Positions 23,071 to 32,743 of a DNA stretch of 33,646 bases are shown piece after piece. Location of the stretch: the NCBI GenBank assembly GCA_003989075.1, contig RXIX01000027.1:1-33646 (forward strand), in the 5' to 3' direction. This stretch comes from Candidatus Competibacteraceae bacterium. GTDB taxonomy: Bacteria; Pseudomonadota; Gammaproteobacteria; Competibacterales; Competibacteraceae. Each line of letters opens with the position of its first letter. Positions within the stretch are counted from its first letter, which is position 1. The notes under the pieces are model-generated. The model saw nothing but the letters and a program-made list of their open reading frames with translations, was not told the origin of the DNA and made no database searches. A program made the position numbers and the translations under genes.

Positions 23071-24423
23071 TCAGCACGGTTTCTCGGCACCTTTGCGCGC
23101 GTAGTACCACCAGTTAATATAAATATTGAAGATATAGAACAGCGCCAGCCCATATAGGAAAGCATTGGGTGATCCGGTTGCTGAGAATGACCATCCAATC
23201 AGCATGCCGAAAATGAACGGGCCAAATGAGGCCATTGCTGCGGTCCAGCCAATGATTCCACCAGCCTGACGCGGCTCGAAGATCATCGGCATTTGCTTGA
23301 AGGTGCTGGCGTTGCCGACGCCGCTAAAAAAGAACATGCCCAGCATCAAGCCAACAAATAATGGGAATTGCTCCATTGAAGTCGGATGGGTATAGAAAGT
23401 GACCGCGATCGCGCAGATCAGCAGGCCAATACCCGACCAGTGCGTAACGATGGCGCCACCAAACTTATCGGAAATCGGACCGGCCATTACCCGTGCAGCA
23501 GCACCGACCAAGGGACCAAGAAAGGCATAGGCTAGTGGATCAGGACCGCCCGGCAATCCGGTATAAAGCTGTTTAATCAGCAGCGGAAACGTAGCTGCGA
23601 ATCCGGAAAATGAACCAAAGGTCATGATATAAAGCGAGGTCATCCAGAAACCATGCCGATTGCCGAAATGAAAGATATCGAGCTGCTCTTGGAAATTGGC
23701 GCGCACTGGCACCGATTTCAGCATTGCCCAAGCAGCAATCGCGAATACTATGATGAAGGGTACGTAAATCAGCGCAGCATTCTGCAGCCAGATCGGCCTA
23801 GTCAGTGCACCAGGTGCTGTAGGGACAAAGACCTGCTGCTCACCAGCCAGTGTACCAAACAGAGCAAAGCCGATAATCCATGGAGTTAAAAATTGCACTA
23901 CGCTGACCCCGAAATTACCGATACCGGCCTGAATAGCCAGCGCAGTACCTTGCAGGCGCTTGGGAAAAAACAGGCTAGTCGAGGGCATGAACGAGGAGAA
24001 ATTGCCGCCACCGAGTCCGGCCAGAAAAGACAACGTCAGCAATACCCAATAGGGCATCGAAGGATCCTGCACGGCGTAAAACCAGCCCAGCGCTGGTATC
24101 AGCAAGGACAGGGTCGAGAATGTAACAACGTGGCGGGTACCATACATCGGTATCAAAAAGGTGTGCAGGGTGCGCAGCAGACCAGCGGCCAAACCGGGCA
24201 TCGCCGTCAGCCAGAACAGCTCGGTGGCATTCAATTTGAAGCCGACATTTGGTAGACGCACCACCAGGGCACTGACCACAAACCAGACAATGAAAGCCAT
24301 CATCAGGTTTAGGGTAGTTATGATCAAGGTTTTCCAGGCCAATGATTTCCCGGTAGACTCCCAAAACCCTGGATCTTCCGGAGCCCAATAACTCAACCAG
24401 GTACGGGGATTATGTTCGATCAT
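23071..24423 (-). CDS. narK: NarK-type nitrate/nitrite transporter (NarK2 class)
   Basis: About 450 residues, major facilitator superfamily, with around 12 membrane helices. Nitrate-transporter marks are GLGGGNFSSFMPSTSLFFPKRLQGTALAIQAGIGNFG (first nitrate signature) and GVGNASTFKQMP (second signature). The short loop start APEDPGFWES is typical of the NarK2 nitrate/nitrite antiporter class. I set ATG 24423 as start because GGAG lies ten bases upstream; an upstream ATG would add 27 residues that look non-family. It heads narKGHJI-moaA and is divergent from the 83-aa gene. It is clearly related to the second half of the fusion at 26628-29324, down to the shared end YARKGA-x-x-PC. Confidence 0.96.
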   Translation of the reverse strand: MIEHNPRTWLSYWAPEDPGFWESTGKSLAWKTLIITTLNLMMAFIVWFVVSALVVRLPNVGFKLNATELFWLTAMPGLAAGLLRTLHTFLIPMYGTRHVVTFSTLSLLIPALGWFYAVQDPSMPYWVLLTLSFLAGLGGGNFSSFMPSTSLFFPKRLQGTALAIQAGIGNFGVSVVQFLTPWIIGFALFGTLAGEQQVFVPTAPGALTRPIWLQNAALIYVPFIIVFAIAAWAMLKSVPVRANFQEQLDIFHFGNRHGFWMTSLYIMTFGSFSGFAATFPLLIKQLYTGLPGGPDPLAYAFLGPLVGAAARVMAGPISDKFGGAIVTHWSGIGLLICAIAVTFYTHPTSMEQFPLFVGLMLGMFFFSGVGNASTFKQMPMIFEPRQAGGIIGWTAAMASFGPFIFGMLIGWSFSATGSPNAFLYGLALFYIFNIYINWWYYARKGAEKPC

Positions 24424-24569
24424 TCGGAATATGCTCCAAAAAATGGCGATAGGCGATGAGTGATCGGTAAATAGTGGAGCCATTGGATAAACAGGTCGCG
24501 GCATGTCAGCGCTTACAACCTGCCCATCCCGTGCTATATATCTAATGCTACCGGTTACTCATTGCTAAA

Positions 24570-24586
24570 AAAATCAGGGTTATTGG
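24570..24586 (-). promoter_or_regulatory. 17-bp box shared by both narK-type promoters (copy 1)
   Basis: Minus-strand CCAATAACCCTGATTTT. The same 17 bases with one change occur at 29380-29396, 45 bases from the NarL-like palindrome in both places. It lies about 150 bases upstream of narK. A TATATA-like stretch follows about 25 bases downstream, so it may overlap the -35 region. It does not match the FNR/Anr consensus TTGAT-N4-ATCAA. The bound factor is unknown. Confidence 0.5.
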
Positions 24587-24614
24587 TATTCAGTTACCGG
24601 TTCATACTGTGGAT

Positions 24615-24630
24615 TACCTCTTTTGAGGTA
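24615..24630. promoter_or_regulatory. NarL/NarP-type 7-2-7 palindrome (copy 1)
   Basis: TACCTCT-TT-TGAGGTA. Two inverted heptamers are separated by two bases; the left one fits the NarL consensus TACYYMT exactly and the right one in six of seven positions. The 7-2-7 arrangement is the established high-affinity NarL/NarP site. It lies between the divergent narK and 83-aa genes, and narX-narL are in this window. In the same gap TTGATTATGATGAT (24653-24666) is a partial FNR-like site, 8 of 10 conserved bases. Confidence 0.8.
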
Positions 24631-24709
24631 TTAGAAAAGATAACGCAATAATTTGATTATGATGATTTTTATGAAATCGACAGATCAGAAAGGTCCTTAC
24701 GTTCTAGCC

Positions 24710-24745
24710 GGCATGACTCCATGGGGGTAACCCGAAAAACCGGGT
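24710..24745 (+). promoter_or_regulatory. Conserved 35-bp element with hairpin (copy 1)
   Basis: It begins GGCATGACTCCATGGGGGTA and continues ACCCGAAAAACCGGGT, which forms a 5-bp stem with a six-base loop. About 29 of its 35 bases recur at 29521-29556. In both places it lies 95-96 bases from the NarL-like palindrome. GGGGGTA inside it is a 6-of-7 inverted NarL heptamer. It could be a further NarL site, part of a plus-strand promoter, or an RNA leader of the 83-aa gene 155 bases on. The remaining gap to 24899 holds another hairpin (24795-24819) and no gene I trust. Confidence 0.45.
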
Positions 24746-24899
24746 GCTGAGCAGGCGTCAGGATGAAAATGGACGGAGGTGAAAACAGCCAGACGGCATC
24801 AGCCTTGTGACTGATGGCCGCTAATCATCACCAGTGCTGGCATGCCCAGTGTCATTAATACTTGTCAGATGCACATCAAAATACACACGGAGATTAAAA

Positions 24900-25151
24900 A
24901 TGCCGATTAACCCGCACTCTCTTGCTGAAATGGTACGCGCTGCCTGCATTGAAAGCGCGCGCGCGGCCTATGAAACAGGTGGCATTCTTGGGTTATGCGC
25001 TGAAGGTCGCTGGGAATATGCAATTTCCGCCATGCAACAACTGGATATGGCTGCTCTCATCCCAGCTGATTCGCCAGATGCCGATCCTTCAGCACCACCA
25101 GCGCCAGTAGAATTTCTTGATGACCAAAATACCGCTGCTCATCGCCGATAA
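24900..25151 (+). CDS. Small conserved-looking protein of unknown function
   Basis: 83 residues, soluble, no signal or membrane segment. I do not recognise a named domain. It opens with a helical segment (SLAEMVRAACIESARAAYETG), then GILGLCAEGRWEYAISAMQQLDM, then a proline-rich acidic tail. The pattern GLC-x-EGRWE-x-AI-x-A looks like a conserved motif of small proteins near molybdoenzyme or nitrate genes, but I recall no function. GGAG seven bases before ATG 24900 makes the start firm. It is divergent from narK and shares the control region with its NarL-type site, so it is probably nitrate-regulated. It converges on nnrS. Confidence 0.8.
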   Translation: MPINPHSLAEMVRAACIESARAAYETGGILGLCAEGRWEYAISAMQQLDMAALIPADSPDADPSAPPAPVEFLDDQNTAAHRR

Positions 25152-25211
25152 TAGTATTGCTGGCCAAGTTGCGGCATACCGTGTTATCAGTCAATTACTC
25201 CGATGTGAGCG

Positions 25212-25239
25212 TACCGTCCCTGCCTATTTCGGGACGGTA
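25212..25239. terminator. Terminator-like hairpin between convergent genes
   Basis: TACCGTCCC and GGGACGGTA form a perfect 9-bp stem with a ten-base loop, between the ends of the 83-aa gene and nnrS. There is no clear T-run on either side, so termination strength is doubtful. Confidence 0.5.
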
Positions 25240-25283
25240 AGTCTACTTATCGGCATCGGATGTCTGCATCGAGACTGTGGCTG

Positions 25284-26468
25284 TTAACCAGACTGTCCAT
25301 CAACACGCGGCTGTGTCAGCATTGACCAGTGGACGATAACAAAAATAAAAAATGCCACGATCCATAGTAGCTGTGCTGTCAGAATCCAGATCACATAATA
25401 ATGGACTGCAATCAGCGGCAAAACGACACGAATGATGGCTGCAGCGATGATGATCGCCAATATCACCGTTACTGCCTTGGATGGATTGTGCACACTTCTA
25501 CCGGTATGACCCAGGGTAACGCGCGCCATCATGCTCAAGGTGATAACACCAATACCGCCGATACTGAAGGCATGAATAGCGATCATGTTGGGCAGGCTGA
25601 GAACTGCATTTAATGCGGTGATAAAAAAACCCAGATTTATAAAACCGAATGCAACAAACAAGCTCCATAGCAGCGGTTTTTTCCAGATTCCCTGTGTATG
25701 CCATCGGACCATTCGAACAGAATTAGCAATTGCCAGACCCAACGCAGTCAATGCAATCAATATCCGCTGCTGCAAAATCACTTCAGCTATCAGAAACACC
25801 AGATACAGCCCGATCACCAATTGATCCAGCCACCAAACATTCACTAGTTTAACCGGATAGCCAACGCCGGCCTCAATAAAAAACGTAATGACGCGCCGGC
25901 CTATCAGTAGAATCATGCCAATAATTAAAAACAGGCCAGCGTAAATCCCCAGCCGGACACCCTCCTCGAAAACGCCGCTAGCGCCCAGATAGAAACACCC
26001 ATTAGCTAACAGCAACAGCAGCAACATCATGACAATACCCAACTGTCGCCACTGCCTGACCTTGGCAATTGGATATGCAACTGCACCAATCAAACCCAGC
26101 ATGAATAGAAGATCAAAAACCGCTGCCAGCATGATCAACTGAGTACCAAATAGCTCAATAACTCTCGGCAATATCCAAAGAACGAATAGTGCCAGCAACT
26201 GGAAGCCACAGGGTGTCTGTATACCGGTCCAGTTACGAACTGCGGTCAACAGGAATCCGGCAACTACTGCCATTGAAAACCCATAGATCATGGCATGGGC
26301 ATGCCATTGAAATAATGAAATTCCTGCTATTGGCAGTGGCATATGGAACGAGTAAACCGCCATCCAGAATGCCATTGAGATTACGGCAAAAATCGCCGCA
26401 CCCATAAAGAAGGGTCGGAATCCCAAATTCAAAAGCGCGGTTTCAGGTGCTACTACGATTTTTCTCAT
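25284..26468 (-). CDS. nnrS: NnrS family membrane protein
   Basis: About 394 residues with roughly twelve hydrophobic helices. Family features are LGFRPFFMGAAIFAVISM near the start, the conserved FQWHAHAMIYGFSMAVVAGFLLTAVRNWTG, and HAFSIGGIGVITLSMMARVTLGHTGR. NnrS is a heme- and copper-binding inner-membrane protein that relieves nitric oxide stress, usually found with denitrification or nitrate reduction genes. The start is ATG 26468, with GGAG 11 bases upstream; a TTG just before it would have better spacing. It follows the NarK fusion by about 160 bases on the same strand. It is AT-rich like the nar operon. Confidence 0.95.
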   Translation of the reverse strand: MRKIVVAPETALLNLGFRPFFMGAAIFAVISMAFWMAVYSFHMPLPIAGISLFQWHAHAMIYGFSMAVVAGFLLTAVRNWTGIQTPCGFQLLALFVLWILPRVIELFGTQLIMLAAVFDLLFMLGLIGAVAYPIAKVRQWRQLGIVMMLLLLLLANGCFYLGASGVFEEGVRLGIYAGLFLIIGMILLIGRRVITFFIEAGVGYPVKLVNVWWLDQLVIGLYLVFLIAEVILQQRILIALTALGLAIANSVRMVRWHTQGIWKKPLLWSLFVAFGFINLGFFITALNAVLSLPNMIAIHAFSIGGIGVITLSMMARVTLGHTGRSVHNPSKAVTVILAIIIAAAIIRVVLPLIAVHYYVIWILTAQLLWIVAFFIFVIVHWSMLTQPRVDGQSG

Positions 26469-26627
26469 CAATCACTCATCTCCGTAAAGCAGACCTGCCC
26501 GGAAATTCAACCTGACCAATGATCAGACCATGCTGATGGATCCACGGCAATTCGGGCAGCGGTAAGTCGGTGATCTGCACCACGCATGCAGATACACAGT
26601 CTTACCGCTGGCGTGTCGGGCACTGTT

Positions 26628-29324
26628 TCAGCAGGGCAGCGCTGCACCCTTACGGGCATAGCCGTGCCAGGTCAGACCCAGGCAGATCAGATAGAACAGG
26701 CTGAAAAACAACAGTGCACCGCCAGGGTCGCCACTCAGATCGAATGAAGCGCCATAGGCGATGGGGATAAAGAAACCGCCAAAGGCAGCAACCGCTGAAC
26801 TGAAGCCCAGGGTTGCTGCGGCTTCGGTAGCGGCGGTGCGGCGTGCCTGCTCCAGAGCGGCTGCGTCCTGCCCGGCCACCTGCCGTTCGCGCAGGGTGCG
26901 GAACAGGATCGGAATCATGCGGAAGGTGGAGCCGTTACCGATCCCGGCGGCCAGAAACAGGATCAGGAACATCAGCATGAAACCGGCTACGCTGCCGCCA
27001 CCGCTCGTGCCGGGCAGGAATGGGATTGCCAGCAGCGTCGCGCCAGCCATGACCAGAAAACTCCAGACGCTGATCATGGCTCCGCCGCGCTGATCGGCCA
27101 GCCAGCCCCCAATCGGCCGTACCAGCGCCGCCAGCAATGGCCCGACAAAGGCGAACTGGACTGCATCCACGCCCGGAAACAGAGTATTGACCAGCATCGG
27201 AAACCCGGCAGCCAGGCCGATGAATGAGCCGAAGGTGCCGGTGTAGAGCACGCTCATCCGCCATTGCTGCGGATGCTTCATGATCGCCACCTGCTCGGCG
27301 AAACCGGCCTTGACCGTAGCGATGTTGTCCATGCCAAACCAGGCAGCCAGTGCCGCGAGGAGGATGAACGGCACCCAGATGAAACCAGCATTCTGCAGCC
27401 AGATCAGCGTAGTGCCGCCGTTCGCCTCACGCAGGGTTTGCGCTTCGCCGCCCAGAATGAGCAGCGCACCACTGTAAATGACAAGGGGAACGATGAATTG
27501 CGCCAAACCAACGCCGAGATTGCCGATACCGGCATTCAGGCCCAGCGCGGTGCCCTGCAGGCGCTGCGGATAGAAGAAGCTGATATTGGCCATGCTGGAG
27601 GAAAAATTACCCGCGCCCAGTCCGCACAGCAGAGCAATGACCACGAACACCGCATAGTGGGTATTCGGATCCTGCACCGCCACACCAATCCACAAGGTCG
27701 GCAGCAACAACAGCGCAGTGCTGAACACAGTCCAGTTGCGCCCGCCGAAGATCGGTACCACAAAGGCATACAGCACCCGAAAGAAGGCGCCGGACAGGCC
27801 CGGCAAGGCCGCCAGCCAGAACAACTGGTTCGGCGTGAATTGGAAACCAACCTGCGGCAGCCTGACCACAATCACGCTCCACACCACCCAGACCGCGAAG
27901 GCCAGCAGCAGCGCCGGCATCGAGAGCCACAGATTGCGATTGGCAATAGCGCGCCCAGTCTGCTCCCAGAAGCTCTCGTCATCGGGCCGCCAATCAACCA
28001 ACAGGTGTCGGCGCGGCCGCCTATGTTCAATCAGTTCGGCCTGTTCCAGCTCGGCACGCGCCTCGGCATGGCGACCCAGAATAGCCTCGCGCTCGTTCTT
28101 CTCGGCCACCCAGGTCCAGAGCATGGTGACCACCACCAGCAGGAACATGAGCATGAAGCAACTGCTGCGCACCCCGACAGCATCTGCGGCAACCCCGAAC
28201 ATGATCGGCAGCACAAAACCGCCCAGGCCGCCAATCAGGCCGACGATGCCACCGACCACGCCCATCTGGGTTGGATAATGATCGGCCAGACTGCGGTAGA
28301 CGCTGGCCTTGCCAAAGCCCTGCGCCAGCCCAACCAGAAAGACCAGCACCGTGAACAGCACGATGCCGGTGGCCAGATTAAGCGACACTTCACCCTTGAT
28401 ACCGTGGATGATCAGCGTGGTCGGCGGATAGCTGAGCAGGAATAGGCACAGCAGGCTGATCCACAGCACCCACCAGGTGACGGTATTGCCGCCCCACTTG
28501 TCGGAAGCCCAGCCGCCCAGCGCACGAATCGCGCCCGACGGCAAATCGAAGAAGATGGTCAAAAAGGCGGCGGTGGCGAGCGGCAGGCCGTATTCGCCGA
28601 CGTAATATTTAGGTAGCCACAGCGCCAGCGCCACGAAACCGCCAAAGACGAAGGCATAGGACAGACCGAAGCGCCAGACGCGTGCATCCAGCAACGGCAA
28701 GAGCTGCTGGCCGAGGCTTGGCCGGATGCGATTCTGATCAGCGCCCTTTTCATGCAGCGGGTCGGTATAGGTGAACAGCCAGAACAGCAGCGCCATCACC
28801 ACCAGCGCCACCGCGTAGACCTTGGGCACCATTTGCCAGGCGCCAAACGAGGCAATAATCAGCGGCGCAATAAATTTGGTCAGCGATGATCCGGCATTGC
28901 CCGCGCCGAAAATGCCCATCGCCGTCCCCTGCCGCTCCTTGCTAAACCAGGCTGAGGTATAGGCGATGCCTACCGCGAATGAACCGCCAGCCAGACCTAC
29001 AAACAATCCCAGCACCAGATATTGCCAATATTCAGTCGCGTAAGACAGCAGCCAGGTCGGAATCGCCACCAGCAGCATCTGGATGAAAAAGATGATCCGC
29101 CCGCCATAGCGATCCGTGAGAATACCCAGGGGTAGACGCACCAGGGAGCCGGTCAGAATAGGCGTTGCGACCAGCAGGCCAAATTCGGTTTCATTAAGAT
29201 TCAGCTCGGCTTTGATCTTGATGCCAATCACGGAAAACATCACCCATACGGCGAAATTAACCGCGAAAGCCATGGTATTCAGGGTCAGGACGGAAATCTG
29301 TTTTCTTTGCAGCGTCGTAGCCAT
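26628..29324 (-). CDS. narK: NarK1-NarK2 fusion nitrate/nitrite transporter
   Basis: About 898 residues: two complete major facilitator domains in one chain. The first (about 1-425) starts LNTMAFAVNFAVWVMFSVIG and resembles the NarK1 nitrate/proton symporter class. A charged linker (EKNEREAILGRHAEARAELE onward) follows. The second half (about 450-898) resembles NarK2 antiporters, with GLGAGNFSSSMANISFFYPQRLQGTALGLNAG and GIGNGSTFRMIPILF. Such natural fusions are known, for example in Paracoccus. It should import nitrate and exchange nitrite. GGAG five bases before ATG 29324 sets the start. It is divergent from mobA. Base composition is GC-rich (37 of 60 at 27301-27360), unlike the adjacent nnrS. 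Confidence 0.97.
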   Translation of the reverse strand: MATTLQRKQISVLTLNTMAFAVNFAVWVMFSVIGIKIKAELNLNETEFGLLVATPILTGSLVRLPLGILTDRYGGRIIFFIQMLLVAIPTWLLSYATEYWQYLVLGLFVGLAGGSFAVGIAYTSAWFSKERQGTAMGIFGAGNAGSSLTKFIAPLIIASFGAWQMVPKVYAVALVVMALLFWLFTYTDPLHEKGADQNRIRPSLGQQLLPLLDARVWRFGLSYAFVFGGFVALALWLPKYYVGEYGLPLATAAFLTIFFDLPSGAIRALGGWASDKWGGNTVTWWVLWISLLCLFLLSYPPTTLIIHGIKGEVSLNLATGIVLFTVLVFLVGLAQGFGKASVYRSLADHYPTQMGVVGGIVGLIGGLGGFVLPIMFGVAADAVGVRSSCFMLMFLLVVVTMLWTWVAEKNEREAILGRHAEARAELEQAELIEHRRPRRHLLVDWRPDDESFWEQTGRAIANRNLWLSMPALLLAFAVWVVWSVIVVRLPQVGFQFTPNQLFWLAALPGLSGAFFRVLYAFVVPIFGGRNWTVFSTALLLLPTLWIGVAVQDPNTHYAVFVVIALLCGLGAGNFSSSMANISFFYPQRLQGTALGLNAGIGNLGVGLAQFIVPLVIYSGALLILGGEAQTLREANGGTTLIWLQNAGFIWVPFILLAALAAWFGMDNIATVKAGFAEQVAIMKHPQQWRMSVLYTGTFGSFIGLAAGFPMLVNTLFPGVDAVQFAFVGPLLAALVRPIGGWLADQRGGAMISVWSFLVMAGATLLAIPFLPGTSGGGSVAGFMLMFLILFLAAGIGNGSTFRMIPILFRTLRERQVAGQDAAALEQARRTAATEAAATLGFSSAVAAFGGFFIPIAYGASFDLSGDPGGALLFFSLFYLICLGLTWHGYARKGAALPC

Positions 29325-29379
29325 GCGAACTCCGTTTTTCATACCTGGGGTCCGATGCTACAACTGCTTATAGCCTGTA

Positions 29380-29396
29380 AAAATCAGGCTTATTGG
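29380..29396 (-). promoter_or_regulatory. 17-bp box shared by both narK-type promoters (copy 2)
   Basis: Minus-strand CCAATAAGCCTGATTTT, one base different from the copy at 24570-24586. A TATAAG (-10-like, plus coordinates 29367-29372) follows on the minus strand, so the box would sit over the -35 region of the narK1K2 promoter, about 60 bases upstream of its start codon. Confidence 0.5.
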
Positions 29397-29424
29397 CAGG
29401 GCTGGCGCGATTCAGTATGCGGAT

Positions 29425-29440
29425 TACCTCTTTCGAGGTA
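29425..29440. promoter_or_regulatory. NarL/NarP-type 7-2-7 palindrome (copy 2)
   Basis: TACCTCT-TT-CGAGGTA, in the gap between the divergent narK1K2 fusion and mobA. The left heptamer is an exact TACYYMT; the right half mirrors it as in the copy at 24615-24630. The preceding GGATTACCTC is also identical in both copies. This predicts nitrate control of the fusion transporter and possibly mobA by NarL. Confidence 0.8.
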
Positions 29441-29520
29441 GGCACGCTGGAAACTTAATAGACTGTTTCTATTGGGATTTAATTCTGCGGTTCCATGATG
29501 GGCCAGGCGGGCTTGATGCT

Positions 29521-29556
29521 GGCATGATCCCGTAGGGGTAACTCGAAAAATCGGAG
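29521..29556 (+). promoter_or_regulatory. Conserved 35-bp element with hairpin, at the mobA ribosome site (copy 2)
   Basis: It begins GGCATGATCCCGTAGGGGTA and continues ACTCGAAAAATCGGAG, ending just before the mobA start codon at 29562. AGGGGTA (29534-29540) is an exact inverted NarL heptamer. CTC near the loop can pair with GAG of the GGAG ribosome-binding site, so it could modulate mobA translation. It is the partner of the element at 24710-24745. Confidence 0.45.
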
Positions 29557-29561
29557 ATGTT

Positions 29562-30248
29562 ATGGATGATTCAGCAATAGCGACCGGCTGGCCTGACCCG
29601 GCGGTACCGGGCATGGCCGCGATCACCGGCGTTCTGCTGGCCGGCGGGCGTGCTGAGCGCATGGGTGGGCAGGATAAGGGCCTGCTGCCGTTGGCCGGTG
29701 AGCCGCTGATTGTCCAAGGTCTGCGCCGCCTGCGGCCTCAGGTTGCGGAACTGCTGATCAGCGCCAATCGCCACCCGGATCGCTACGGCGCGCTCGGCTA
29801 TCGAGTGATCGGCGATCCACCGGACTGCCGCTTTCGCGGACCGCTGGCCGGAATTCTAGCCGCCATGGGCGCCGCCAGGACACCTTGGATCCTGACCGCG
29901 CCCTGTGATTCACCCTTCCTGCCGCCCGACTATGCAGCGCGCATGTGGACGGCGCGGACCCGGTATGGCGCGACGCTCAGCGTTGCCCGGAATGCGGTCG
30001 GCTGGCAACCGGTCTTTGCTCTGCTGCCGGTGACCCTGCACGAGGATTTACGGCATTGGCTGGCGCAGGGCCATGGTGGCGTCGGACGCTGGCTCCAGCA
30101 TTATCAGCCGGCGCCGGTGGATTTTACCGACTGGCCAGCGCTGTTTTGCAACGTCAACACGCCGGCGGAGCTGGCCCGGCTGGAAGCGGCATTCCCGCAT
30201 CCACCGGACTCCCTGCTTAGCGACGAGCGCTCTCCCCGAGATGAGTAA
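29562..30248 (+). CDS. mobA: Molybdenum cofactor guanylyltransferase
   Basis: 228 residues. MobA transfers GMP from GTP to molybdopterin, making the guanine dinucleotide cofactor that NarG requires, in the cytoplasm. The nucleotide-binding motif GVLLAGGRAERMGGQDKGLLPL appears at about 23-44, and LTAPCDSPFLP and FCNVNTPAEL are also typical. The first 17 residues precede the conserved region, so an alternative start is ATG 29613, but ATG 29562 has GGAG upstream and I keep it. It is divergent from the NarK fusion with a NarL-type site between. Its 3' end overlaps narL by 32 bases tail to tail. Confidence 0.95.
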   Translation: MDDSAIATGWPDPAVPGMAAITGVLLAGGRAERMGGQDKGLLPLAGEPLIVQGLRRLRPQVAELLISANRHPDRYGALGYRVIGDPPDCRFRGPLAGILAAMGAARTPWILTAPCDSPFLPPDYAARMWTARTRYGATLSVARNAVGWQPVFALLPVTLHEDLRHWLAQGHGGVGRWLQHYQPAPVDFTDWPALFCNVNTPAELARLEAAFPHPPDSLLSDERSPRDE

Positions 30249-30876
30249 CTGCCCAAACCGCCGCCTCTACCCGCGAGCCCAGGTTCAGCTTGTGCAGCAG
30301 GTGCTTGACATGCACCTTGACGGTGCCCTCGGCAATTTTCAATTGCCGGGCAATCAACTTGTTGCTGTAGCCGGCGGCGATCAACGCCAGCGTCTCCTGC
30401 TCACGCTCGGTCAGATGGATGTGCTCGATCGGCTTGGGGTGGACCTCGTGGCGCAGGGCATTGGCCAGGATGACCGCCACCCGCTCGCCCAGCGCAATGC
30501 GGCCTTGCGCGGCGGTTCTCAGGCATGACAGCACGTCTTCGGGCTCCATGTCCTTGAGCAGATAGCCATCAGCCCCTAGGCGCAGCGCCGCGACCACATC
30601 CTCCTCACTATCGGACACGGTGAGAATGAGCACCCGGCTGTCCATGTCGGTCGCTTTAAGGGCCCTCAGGGTTTCCAGGCCGTTCAGACCGCGCATGTTC
30701 AAATCCAGCAGGATCAGGTCGGGGCGCAGTTGCCGCGCCAGCGCCAGACCCTGTTGACCATTGCCCGCCTCACCGACCAGCCGCAGCGCGCTTTCCATCG
30801 CCACCAGTTGCACAATCCCCCGGCGCATCAAGGGATGATCATCAATGATCAGAATGGTTTGCACATCCTCGGGCAT
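30217..30876 (-). CDS. narL: Nitrate/nitrite response regulator
   Basis: 219 residues. Receiver domain at about 7-125 with acidic pocket IDD (12-13), phosphorylation site Asp58 in LILLDLNMRG, Thr86 and Lys108. A LuxR-type helix-turn-helix follows at about 155-205 (LTEREQETLALIAAGYSNKL then AEGTVKVHVKHLLHKLNL). This is the NarL/NarP layout, and phosphorylated protein binds TACYYMT heptamers. I set ATG 30876 as start, with GAGG upstream; residues before it in the open frame are not family-like. It lies 19 bases after narX and is likely cotranscribed with it. The 7-2-7 sites at 24615 and 29425 are its predicted targets. Confidence 0.95.
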   Translation of the reverse strand: MPEDVQTILIIDDHPLMRRGIVQLVAMESALRLVGEAGNGQQGLALARQLRPDLILLDLNMRGLNGLETLRALKATDMDSRVLILTVSDSEEDVVAALRLGADGYLLKDMEPEDVLSCLRTAAQGRIALGERVAVILANALRHEVHPKPIEHIHLTEREQETLALIAAGYSNKLIARQLKIAEGTVKVHVKHLLHKLNLGSRVEAAVWAVTHLGESARR

Positions 30877-30895
30877 GGCACACCTCGATAGGCAT

Positions 30896-32743
30896 TCAGG
30901 GGGAAATCTGCACCCGGGCGGCAGGCCGAAAGCGCAGATGCACGTTAACGCCGCAGCCGGGCCGCGACTGCAAAAGCAGCGTCCCGCCCAGGCAAGCGGC
31001 CCGCTCATGCATGATGCTCAGACCAAAGTGATGGGTCTTTTGCGCATCATCCGGCAGGCCAATGCCGTCGTCGTCGATCTCCACCATCACCTCACCATCC
31101 TCCAAAGAGCGTAGCTGAACGCGCGCCTGTGTGGCCCGTGCATGCTTGACCACGTTATTCAGGGCCTCGCGAATGATCTGCAGCAGGTGAATCTGCTCGT
31201 TGGGATTGAGCACAACGCCGGTCCAGTCGGCATGATCAAGTTGAATCAATAGGCCGCCACCCTGCTGGCTGAGTTCCTGCACCACATCCCGCAGGCTGTC
31301 TTCCAAACGTGAATGCTGCATTTTCAGGCGAAACGTGGTGATCAGTTCGCGCAGTTGCCGATAGGCATTGTTCAGGCCCTGGCGCAGTTCAGCGATGATC
31401 TCCTGCGTTTCCGCACTCATCGCCGCGCCGCTGGCCGAGGTTTGCAGACGGCTGACCTGGATTTTCAGATAGGACAGGGCCTGCGCCAGGGAGTCGTGCA
31501 GATCACGGGCCATGGCATTACGCTCTTCCAGCAGCGCCAGGCGCTGGACCTGTTCAGCCTGCTCATTGACATACAACGCAGCGGCAAGATTGCGCGCAAC
31601 CGCTTCCAGCAGCGGCAATTGCCAGGCAGTGGTGTTCAGATCGGCATTGCGGACGATCAGTACCCCAAATTGCCGATCCTGATCGCGGACCGGGATGCAG
31701 AAGGTCTGCCGGCTGCTCTCCAGCGTGTGGGTGAAACCCTCGCCCAGACAAGACTGACAGCGTGGGTATTCACAAAAGGACGCCACCGGCGCCGGCGCCG
31801 GGCCTGCGGTGAACACCCGTGTCGCCTGGGTAGTGGTGGGATCGAGCAGGCACAGCCGCACCGAGGCCAGACCGGTCATCTTTTCCACCTCGCTCAAAAT
31901 CGCCTGATAGGTGGCGTCGCGCAGCCGGGATTCGCTGAGCTGGCGGGTGGTGTGATACAGCAGTTCCAGCGAGCGGTTGCTGATGCGCAGCGCCTGGGTT
32001 TGCTGCTCGACCCGCGCTTCCAGATCCGCGTACAGGGTTGAGAGATCGGCCGCCATCAGGTTAAACGCCTGACCGAGCACGCCCAGTTCATCCTGCCCGA
32101 CGTGGCGAATGCGCACCGATAGATCGCCGTGCCGGGCGCGGCGCGCCAGCTCGACCAGATCGCGCAGCGGTACCACGACCCGGCTGTGCAATTGATGCAT
32201 GGCGACAAAGGCCAGCACCAGGGTCAGGAACAGGGCGATGCCCTGCACCAGCCGCAGCAGGCGAATCTTGGCCTCGCTGTCCTGCTCCAGCACCTTGACG
32301 AAGGCATCCAGCCGGGCGACGAACTCATCGATTTCGCGTAGATGGTTCGGGAATGGCGCGGCCTGCGCGGCGGCCTGCAGAGTGGGCCGCAGCTTTTCGC
32401 GCCAGGCGCTTTCGAGCGTTCTGAGCATCTGATGGCGGGAATCGGCCATTGCCGTGGAAATCGCGCCGGTGCGCCAGAGCTGTTCCAGACGGCTTTCGAA
32501 CGCCTGGATTTCCCCGCTGACAGCCGCGACGGCAGCAGGATCGGCGTGATGGACCGGGTCCTGCAGACGGGTGGCAATACGGTAAGACTGCATGCGCAGC
32601 GAGCCGGCCAGATTGATGGCGGTTGCATCACCCTTGCTGGATTCGGCAATCAACATCGCGCTGAGCATGCTCAGCAAGGCCAGCAGGACGATGCCGCCAA
32701 TCGCCAGACCACTACGCAAAATAATGGAATCGTTATTTTCCAT
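30896..32743 (-). CDS. narX: Nitrate/nitrite sensor histidine kinase
   Basis: 615 residues. Membrane helix 1 (about 9-32), periplasmic sensor with the P-box (ATAINLAGSLRMQSYRI, about 40-56) that binds nitrate, helix 2 (about 162-184), HAMP, then a central GAF-like module. That module carries a cysteine group (Cys324, Cys329, Cys332, with Cys349) typical of NarX/NarQ. Next come the HisKA_3 H-box RDLHDSLAQALSYLK with His416, and an ATPase domain with EALNNVVKHA and DDGIGLP. The ATG has AAGGA at proper spacing. With narL it forms the nitrate-sensing pair for this locus. It appears separate from the cytochrome gene upstream because of the hairpin at 32801. Confidence 0.96.
   Translation of the reverse strand: MENNDSIILRSGLAIGGIVLLALLSMLSAMLIAESSKGDATAINLAGSLRMQSYRIATRLQDPVHHADPAAVAAVSGEIQAFESRLEQLWRTGAISTAMADSRHQMLRTLESAWREKLRPTLQAAAQAAPFPNHLREIDEFVARLDAFVKVLEQDSEAKIRLLRLVQGIALFLTLVLAFVAMHQLHSRVVVPLRDLVELARRARHGDLSVRIRHVGQDELGVLGQAFNLMAADLSTLYADLEARVEQQTQALRISNRSLELLYHTTRQLSESRLRDATYQAILSEVEKMTGLASVRLCLLDPTTTQATRVFTAGPAPAPVASFCEYPRCQSCLGEGFTHTLESSRQTFCIPVRDQDRQFGVLIVRNADLNTTAWQLPLLEAVARNLAAALYVNEQAEQVQRLALLEERNAMARDLHDSLAQALSYLKIQVSRLQTSASGAAMSAETQEIIAELRQGLNNAYRQLRELITTFRLKMQHSRLEDSLRDVVQELSQQGGGLLIQLDHADWTGVVLNPNEQIHLLQIIREALNNVVKHARATQARVQLRSLEDGEVMVEIDDDGIGLPDDAQKTHHFGLSIMHERAACLGGTLLLQSRPGCGVNVHLRFRPAARVQISP

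Follow-up and report, generated by a model that had tools for sequence, protein, structure and literature searches.

Two copies of a predicted NarL-IHF nitrate promoter upstream of narK-type genes in a Competibacteraceae genome

The nitrate respiration locus of a Candidatus Competibacteraceae bacterium (assembly GCA_003989075.1) raises the question of why the same short elements recur at nearly fixed spacing in two of its intergenic gaps, and which of the flanking genes they serve. The window analysed here is the whole of contig RXIX01000027.1 from position 1 to 33,646 (33,646 nucleotides); gap1 lies between narK and a gene for an 83-aa protein, and gap2 between narK1K2 and mobA. A 17-bp box (24570–24586 in gap1, 29380–29396 in gap2) is identical at 16 of 17 positions, a palindrome (24615–24630 and 29425–29440) at 15 of 16, and a 35-bp element (24710–24744 and 29521–29555) at 28 of 35. 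A preliminary description of this DNA had reported all three elements, and the coordinates held, with only its count of about 29 matches in the 35-bp element coming down to 28. Its spacings were likewise reproduced, with 45 bases start-to-start from box to palindrome in both gaps and 95 (gap1) or 96 (gap2) from palindrome to 35-bp element, as was its statement that the sequence between the elements is largely different (13/28 identities from box to palindrome and 26/79 from palindrome to 35-bp element). Aligned on the ungapped diagonal at offset 4810, the two gaps share 111 of 237 positions, compared to 84/237 for the runner-up full diagonal. Neither the box (≤ 2 mismatches), the palindrome pattern (≤ 1 mismatch) nor the core of the 35-bp element (≤ 3 mismatches) occurs anywhere else in the 3.4-Mb genome, and because each is limited to these two places, the repeated set is real and exceeds chance. 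A search of 369 genomes of the class for the element core gave just two single matches outside the family, both apparently in coding sequence and with the other elements missing, and a search of a plasmid collection returned nothing except narK-type matches. Between the palindrome and the 35-bp element, both gaps also contain an IHF-like site; this conserved element, the fourth of the set, was absent from the preliminary description.

The genes to the left of both gaps are narK-type transporters on the minus strand. Gap1 precedes narK (23071–24423, minus strand; a NarK/NarU-type MFS transporter, Pfam MFS_1), the first gene of narK-narGHJI, which scored 287.7 bits against the NarK-family model TIGR00886, under its cut-off of 311.7. 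The start of this gene had been placed at 24504, and is corrected here to 24423, where the protein begins MIEHNPR and matches MTEHNPR of relatives; homology begins at this ATG (region 24421–24504), the GGAG ribosome-binding site of which is also present in the relatives. Gap2 precedes a narK1K2 fusion transporter (26628–29324, minus strand), and nnrS (25284–26471, minus strand) lies between narK1K2 and narK. On the right of gap1 is the 83-aa gene (24900–25151, plus strand), whose product is a conserved small protein without a Pfam or NCBIfam match and with conservation in its first ~60 residues; 23 of 40 genomes of the order encode a relative, which lies on contigs other than the nar contigs where comparable (in G037, on C58 rather than on the nar contig C56). 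On the right of gap2 are mobA (29562–30248, plus strand; molybdenum cofactor guanylyltransferase, TIGR02665 above cut-off), narL (30217–31008, minus strand) and a narX/narQ-type nitrate sensor kinase (30896–32743, minus strand), for which the best NCBIfam scores were under the equivalog cut-offs. The 3' ends of mobA and narL overlap at 30217–30248. The longest narL reading frame overlaps narX by more than 100 bases, and since NarL homology starts at residue 49 of this frame, the true narL start is probably further in. NarL itself passes the curated model NF007935 (306.8 bits, cut-off 250), and in an alignment with 1a04 its recognition helix, TVKVHVKH, is that of E. coli NarL. Two genes for IHF-type subunits, named by eye, are present in the genome.

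Upstream regions of narK were taken from 29 places across Competibacteraceae and those that retained the region were aligned, giving ~23 control regions. For the transcription start (+1), a point seven bases beyond the -10 hexamer of the alignment was used, such that all promoter positions given here are predictions. In gap1 the predicted -10 hexamer, TAGCAT (24545–24550, minus strand), aligned with TAATAT or TAGCAT of relatives and puts +1 near 24538; in gap2 the same hexamer (29355–29360, minus strand) puts +1 near 29348. The palindromes, TACCTCTTTTGAGGTA in gap1 and TACCTCTTTCGAGGTA in gap2 (24615–24630 and 29425–29440, without assigned strand), are then centred at about -84.5 in both. Each matches the 7-2-7 consensus at 13 of 14 positions and no other such site was found genome-wide, which, with a narL in the window that passes the curated score, bears out their earlier assignment to the NarL/NarP type; they are predicted to be proximal NarL sites. 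The palindrome or a variant was found in all aligned regions, most commonly as TACCTCTTTGGAGGTA.

The 35-bp element had been taken as a separate third signal, and this did not hold, as relatives carry a second 7-2-7 site at that position, the clearest being in G013 (TACCTCCTTGGAGGTA) and G014 (TACCCCCTTGGAGGTA). The corresponding window sequences, TGACTCCATGGGGGTA (24714–24729, one good half, about -183.5) and TGATCCCGTAGGGGTA (29525–29540, about -184.5), match 10–11 of 14 consensus positions, scores that, taken alone, are no higher than chance would give in the window. Proximal and distal sites are 99–103 bp apart throughout the aligned regions, one lineage excepted. By this comparison the 35-bp element is probably a distal NarL site plus a conserved tail (ACCCGAAAAACCGGG at 24730–24744; ACTCGAAAAATCGGA at 29541–29555, overlapping the mobA ribosome-binding region; neither with an assigned strand). 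The relatives' version of the tail is GTATCYCGRAATACC, a near-palindrome in some (e.g. GGTATCCCGGAATACC in G008), and the tail could possibly contain further NarL heptamers. A sigma-54 -24/-12 promoter was considered for the 35-bp element and rejected, as no GC is present at -12 (read by eye). The IHF-like sites, both on the minus strand at about -114, were compared with the consensus only; that of gap1, CAATAATTTGATT (24646–24658), matches YAANNNNTTGATW at 9/9 positions, and that of gap2, TAATAGACTGTTT (29456–29468), is weak at 7/9. Across the family, YAANNNNTTGATW or a near-match (the IHF consensus on the other strand) begins 30–32 bp past the start of the proximal NarL site in 20 of 23 regions, compared to at most 4/23 for non-overlapping windows of the same width, counts that are not independent because the control regions are related by descent.

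The same alignment set apart the gaps' 17-bp box, AAAATCAGGGTTATTGG in gap1 and AAAATCAGGCTTATTGG in gap2 (both minus strand, centred at about -40.5). Eight perfect FNR boxes were found in relatives, at -40.5 or -41.5, and those in g4/g5 are accompanied by one NarL site between -93.5 and -94.5 and another between -193.5 and -196.5. More generally, regions without the 17-bp box have the proximal NarL site at -93.5 to -95.5, IHF at -121 to -126 and the distal site at -193.5 to -198.5, except G027 (-85.5, -115 and -174.5, respectively). An FNR/ANR box at -41.5 was not found in either gap (best score 6/10 in both); the 17-bp box occupies its place there, as it does in one region of G037 and two of G038. 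These five regions have the box at -40.5, NarL at -84.5, IHF at -114 or -115 and the distal NarL site at -183.5 to -186.5, which puts the NarL-IHF-NarL block ~10 bp, or one helical turn, nearer the promoter than in FNR-box relatives. Judged from this alignment, the 17-bp box replaces the FNR box in the clade to which both gaps belong. In most genomes of the order with narK1K2, a second narK follows after a short gap, and narG comes after narK where looked at (G037, G038); given this gene order, narK1K2-narK-narGHJI would be under one control region in most relatives. These single regions (e.g. G008, G013 and G026) are homologous to those of the window, stand 5' of orthologous narK1K2 and have the same site order, but there is one copy per operon rather than two, most g4/g5 members have an FNR box, and the distance from the block to the promoter is ~10 bp greater (G027 excepted). 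In the window, narK1K2 and narK are separated by gap1, the 83-aa gene and nnrS; in G038 they are on two contigs with a control region for each. G002 has two narK1K2 loci (C17 and C57), each with a similar control region of its own.

We consider it highly probable (roughly 85%) that each gap is a copy of a nitrate-activated NarL-IHF promoter reading left into a narK gene. The gaps had been described as divergent control regions, in which the 35-bp element could act as the operator for mobA or the 83-aa gene and the box as that for the left narK genes. The right-hand gene is on the plus strand in both gaps and, in gap2 and G037, the 35-bp element abuts the mobA ribosome-binding site; an effect on mobA of NarL at this position is conceivable as well. 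However, the right-hand neighbour varies: it is mobA in gap2, G037 and G038, the 83-aa gene in gap1, a distant GNAT-like gene at the second G038 copy and, in several relatives, narX or the narL 3' end reading toward narK (recognised by eye). The position of the element relative to narK is constant beside all of these, including an unrelated small gene, which makes bidirectional control improbable; because the element set follows narK whatever gene lies to its right, each gap is, on comparative grounds, a single promoter 5' of narK and not a two-sided device. Far less credible still is that the 35-bp element forms a structured RNA leader (a riboswitch or a hairpin) for the genes on the right. 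The window and G037/G038 sequences do allow short pairings, CTC...GAG and CCC...GGG, but the relatives' GTATCYCGRAATACC lacks them, some relatives have no plus-strand gene downstream, and the element matched no curated covariance model in Rfam; we rejected this candidate.

If each gap is a narK promoter, the pair could owe its constant spacing to a recent local duplication within this genome, with shared descent alone keeping the distances. The elements are collinear on one diagonal, and a tree with gap1 and gap2 forced into one clade is worse by 6.2 log units but is not rejected (p-AU 0.11). Against this, gap1 is no closer to gap2 (50% identity over the aligned region) than to copies from another genus, g13 (55–57%); the spacers have diverged and the sites were retained; and the narK leader of gap1 aligns with that of G038 over ~107 nt, scoring above all 500 shuffles (mononucleotide, a mild test). 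A recent event is thus unlikely, and the duplication probably dates far back, given that the gaps differ no less from each other than from the copies of a different genus. The control-region tree unites the five box regions in a single clade (100/96), in which gap1 pairs with the narK copy of G038, G038b (70/87). The best, if weakly resolved, reading is one old duplication before the g1/g13 split, with G037 now single-copy. The earlier suggestions of an ancient segment duplication or of strong selection on a multi-protein complex are both supported by the comparison, as alignment with related control regions, which had been proposed as a check, recovered the same spacing in ~23 of them. In the tree of narK1K2 coding sequences, the window falls with g10 (G026, G027 and G029) and G037/G038 fall with g3, unlike the control region, which groups the window with g13 (G037 and G038); the control region and the gene may thus have separate histories, possibly through exchange of either. 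As for the box, it could be the remnant of an FNR site, or ordinary core promoter sequence with no factor of its own: it contains ATCAG, which differs from an FNR half-site by one substitution, and the MAFFT alignment puts it at the FNR place, but its conservation spans ~15 bp in five regions with diverged spacers, and these regions score just 6–7/10 as FNR sites. We regard decay as possible, though not probable. That FNR/oxygen input was swapped for another activator acting at the box (-40.5), with the NarL-IHF-NarL block shifted by one helical turn and its geometry kept, is offered more tentatively, as a doubtful alternative. The box was also compared by eye with IHF and inverted FNR sites, and fitted neither consensus.

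The regulators encoded in the genome bear on this point. A PF13545 search found one true Crp/Fnr-type protein (L093), which has the recognition helix MLGVRREGVTEAAG; it is the only HTH_Crp_2 protein found in this genome, and its helix is unusual. Among PF00027 matches, none of the four inspected was a further Crp/Fnr-type protein (a 697-aa match was left out). Thus no FNR/ANR/DNR-type protein was detected in this nitrate respirer, the assembly of which has a listed completeness of 100, with an assembly gap possible. Canonical FNR is encoded in 8 of 40 genomes of the order, and the window's genome is outside these eight. The simple link that the FNR box is missing because FNR is missing fails across the family, because most FNR-box relatives also lack canonical FNR, carrying other Crp/Fnr proteins with E-x-x-S-R, and because G037 and G038 have the 17-bp box although they encode such proteins. 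If the activator swap were true, nitrate respiration would be uncoupled from FNR/ANR in a genome without a detectable protein of the FNR/ANR/DNR type.

From the position, conservation and spacing of the sites, the operon layout and the presence of narXL and IHF-type genes, we infer protein binding, the transcription starts, a nitrate response and the use of the box as an activator site. Phosphorylated NarL would bind the proximal 7-2-7 site (about -84.5) and the distal site (about -184), with IHF bending the DNA between them at about -114, and the folded complex, together with a class-II-type activator at the box (about -40.5), would recruit RNA polymerase. Gap2 is proposed to drive narK1K2, and probably nnrS too, and gap1 to drive narK-narGHJI. 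In ancestors, the whole narK1K2-narK-narGHJI operon would have been under one region, which was then duplicated in front of narK as the operon split; we propose that, as a result, both halves kept nitrate control. The locus illustrates how an operon can come apart with each part still controlled, through duplication of its nitrate switch, and the narG/narK1 regulatory layout appears to hold, with near single-base spacing, across a family of wastewater denitrifiers. If another activator binds the box, its replacement of the FNR box would bear on when these organisms denitrify with oxygen present, and the box would be a natural counterpart of an engineered narG-CRP promoter (PMC9314961).

Two known promoters are close to this layout. 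At E. coli narG, NarL at -89 and -195, FNR and IHF are established, and both NarL regions, IHF and FNR are all required (PMC4549865). As is predicted for the window copies, narGHJI has two NarL regions ~100 bp apart, IHF between them and an activator site near -41; it differs in having FNR at -41.5, where the window has no FNR box, and in lacking true 7-2-7 sites (PMC4549865), whereas the proximal site of the window is a near-perfect one. P. aeruginosa narK1K2GHJI is the same kind of operon as the window cluster, and its narK1 promoter uses Anr/Dnr, NarXL and IHF, with IHF important (PMC12491237). Its 7-2-7 site, TACCTCGAAAGAGGTA, is nearly the same sequence as the window site and lies 52 bp from an FNR-type box, the distance that the same scan gave for E. 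coli narG. The intergenic gap is only 175 bp in the record examined, too short to accommodate a distal NarL site; in contrast to narK1, the window lacks the Anr/Dnr box and carries the region in duplicate. By this comparison of sites, the two gaps appear to belong to the known kind of promoter represented by E. coli narG and P. aeruginosa narK1, as a modest variant with a replaced activator site.
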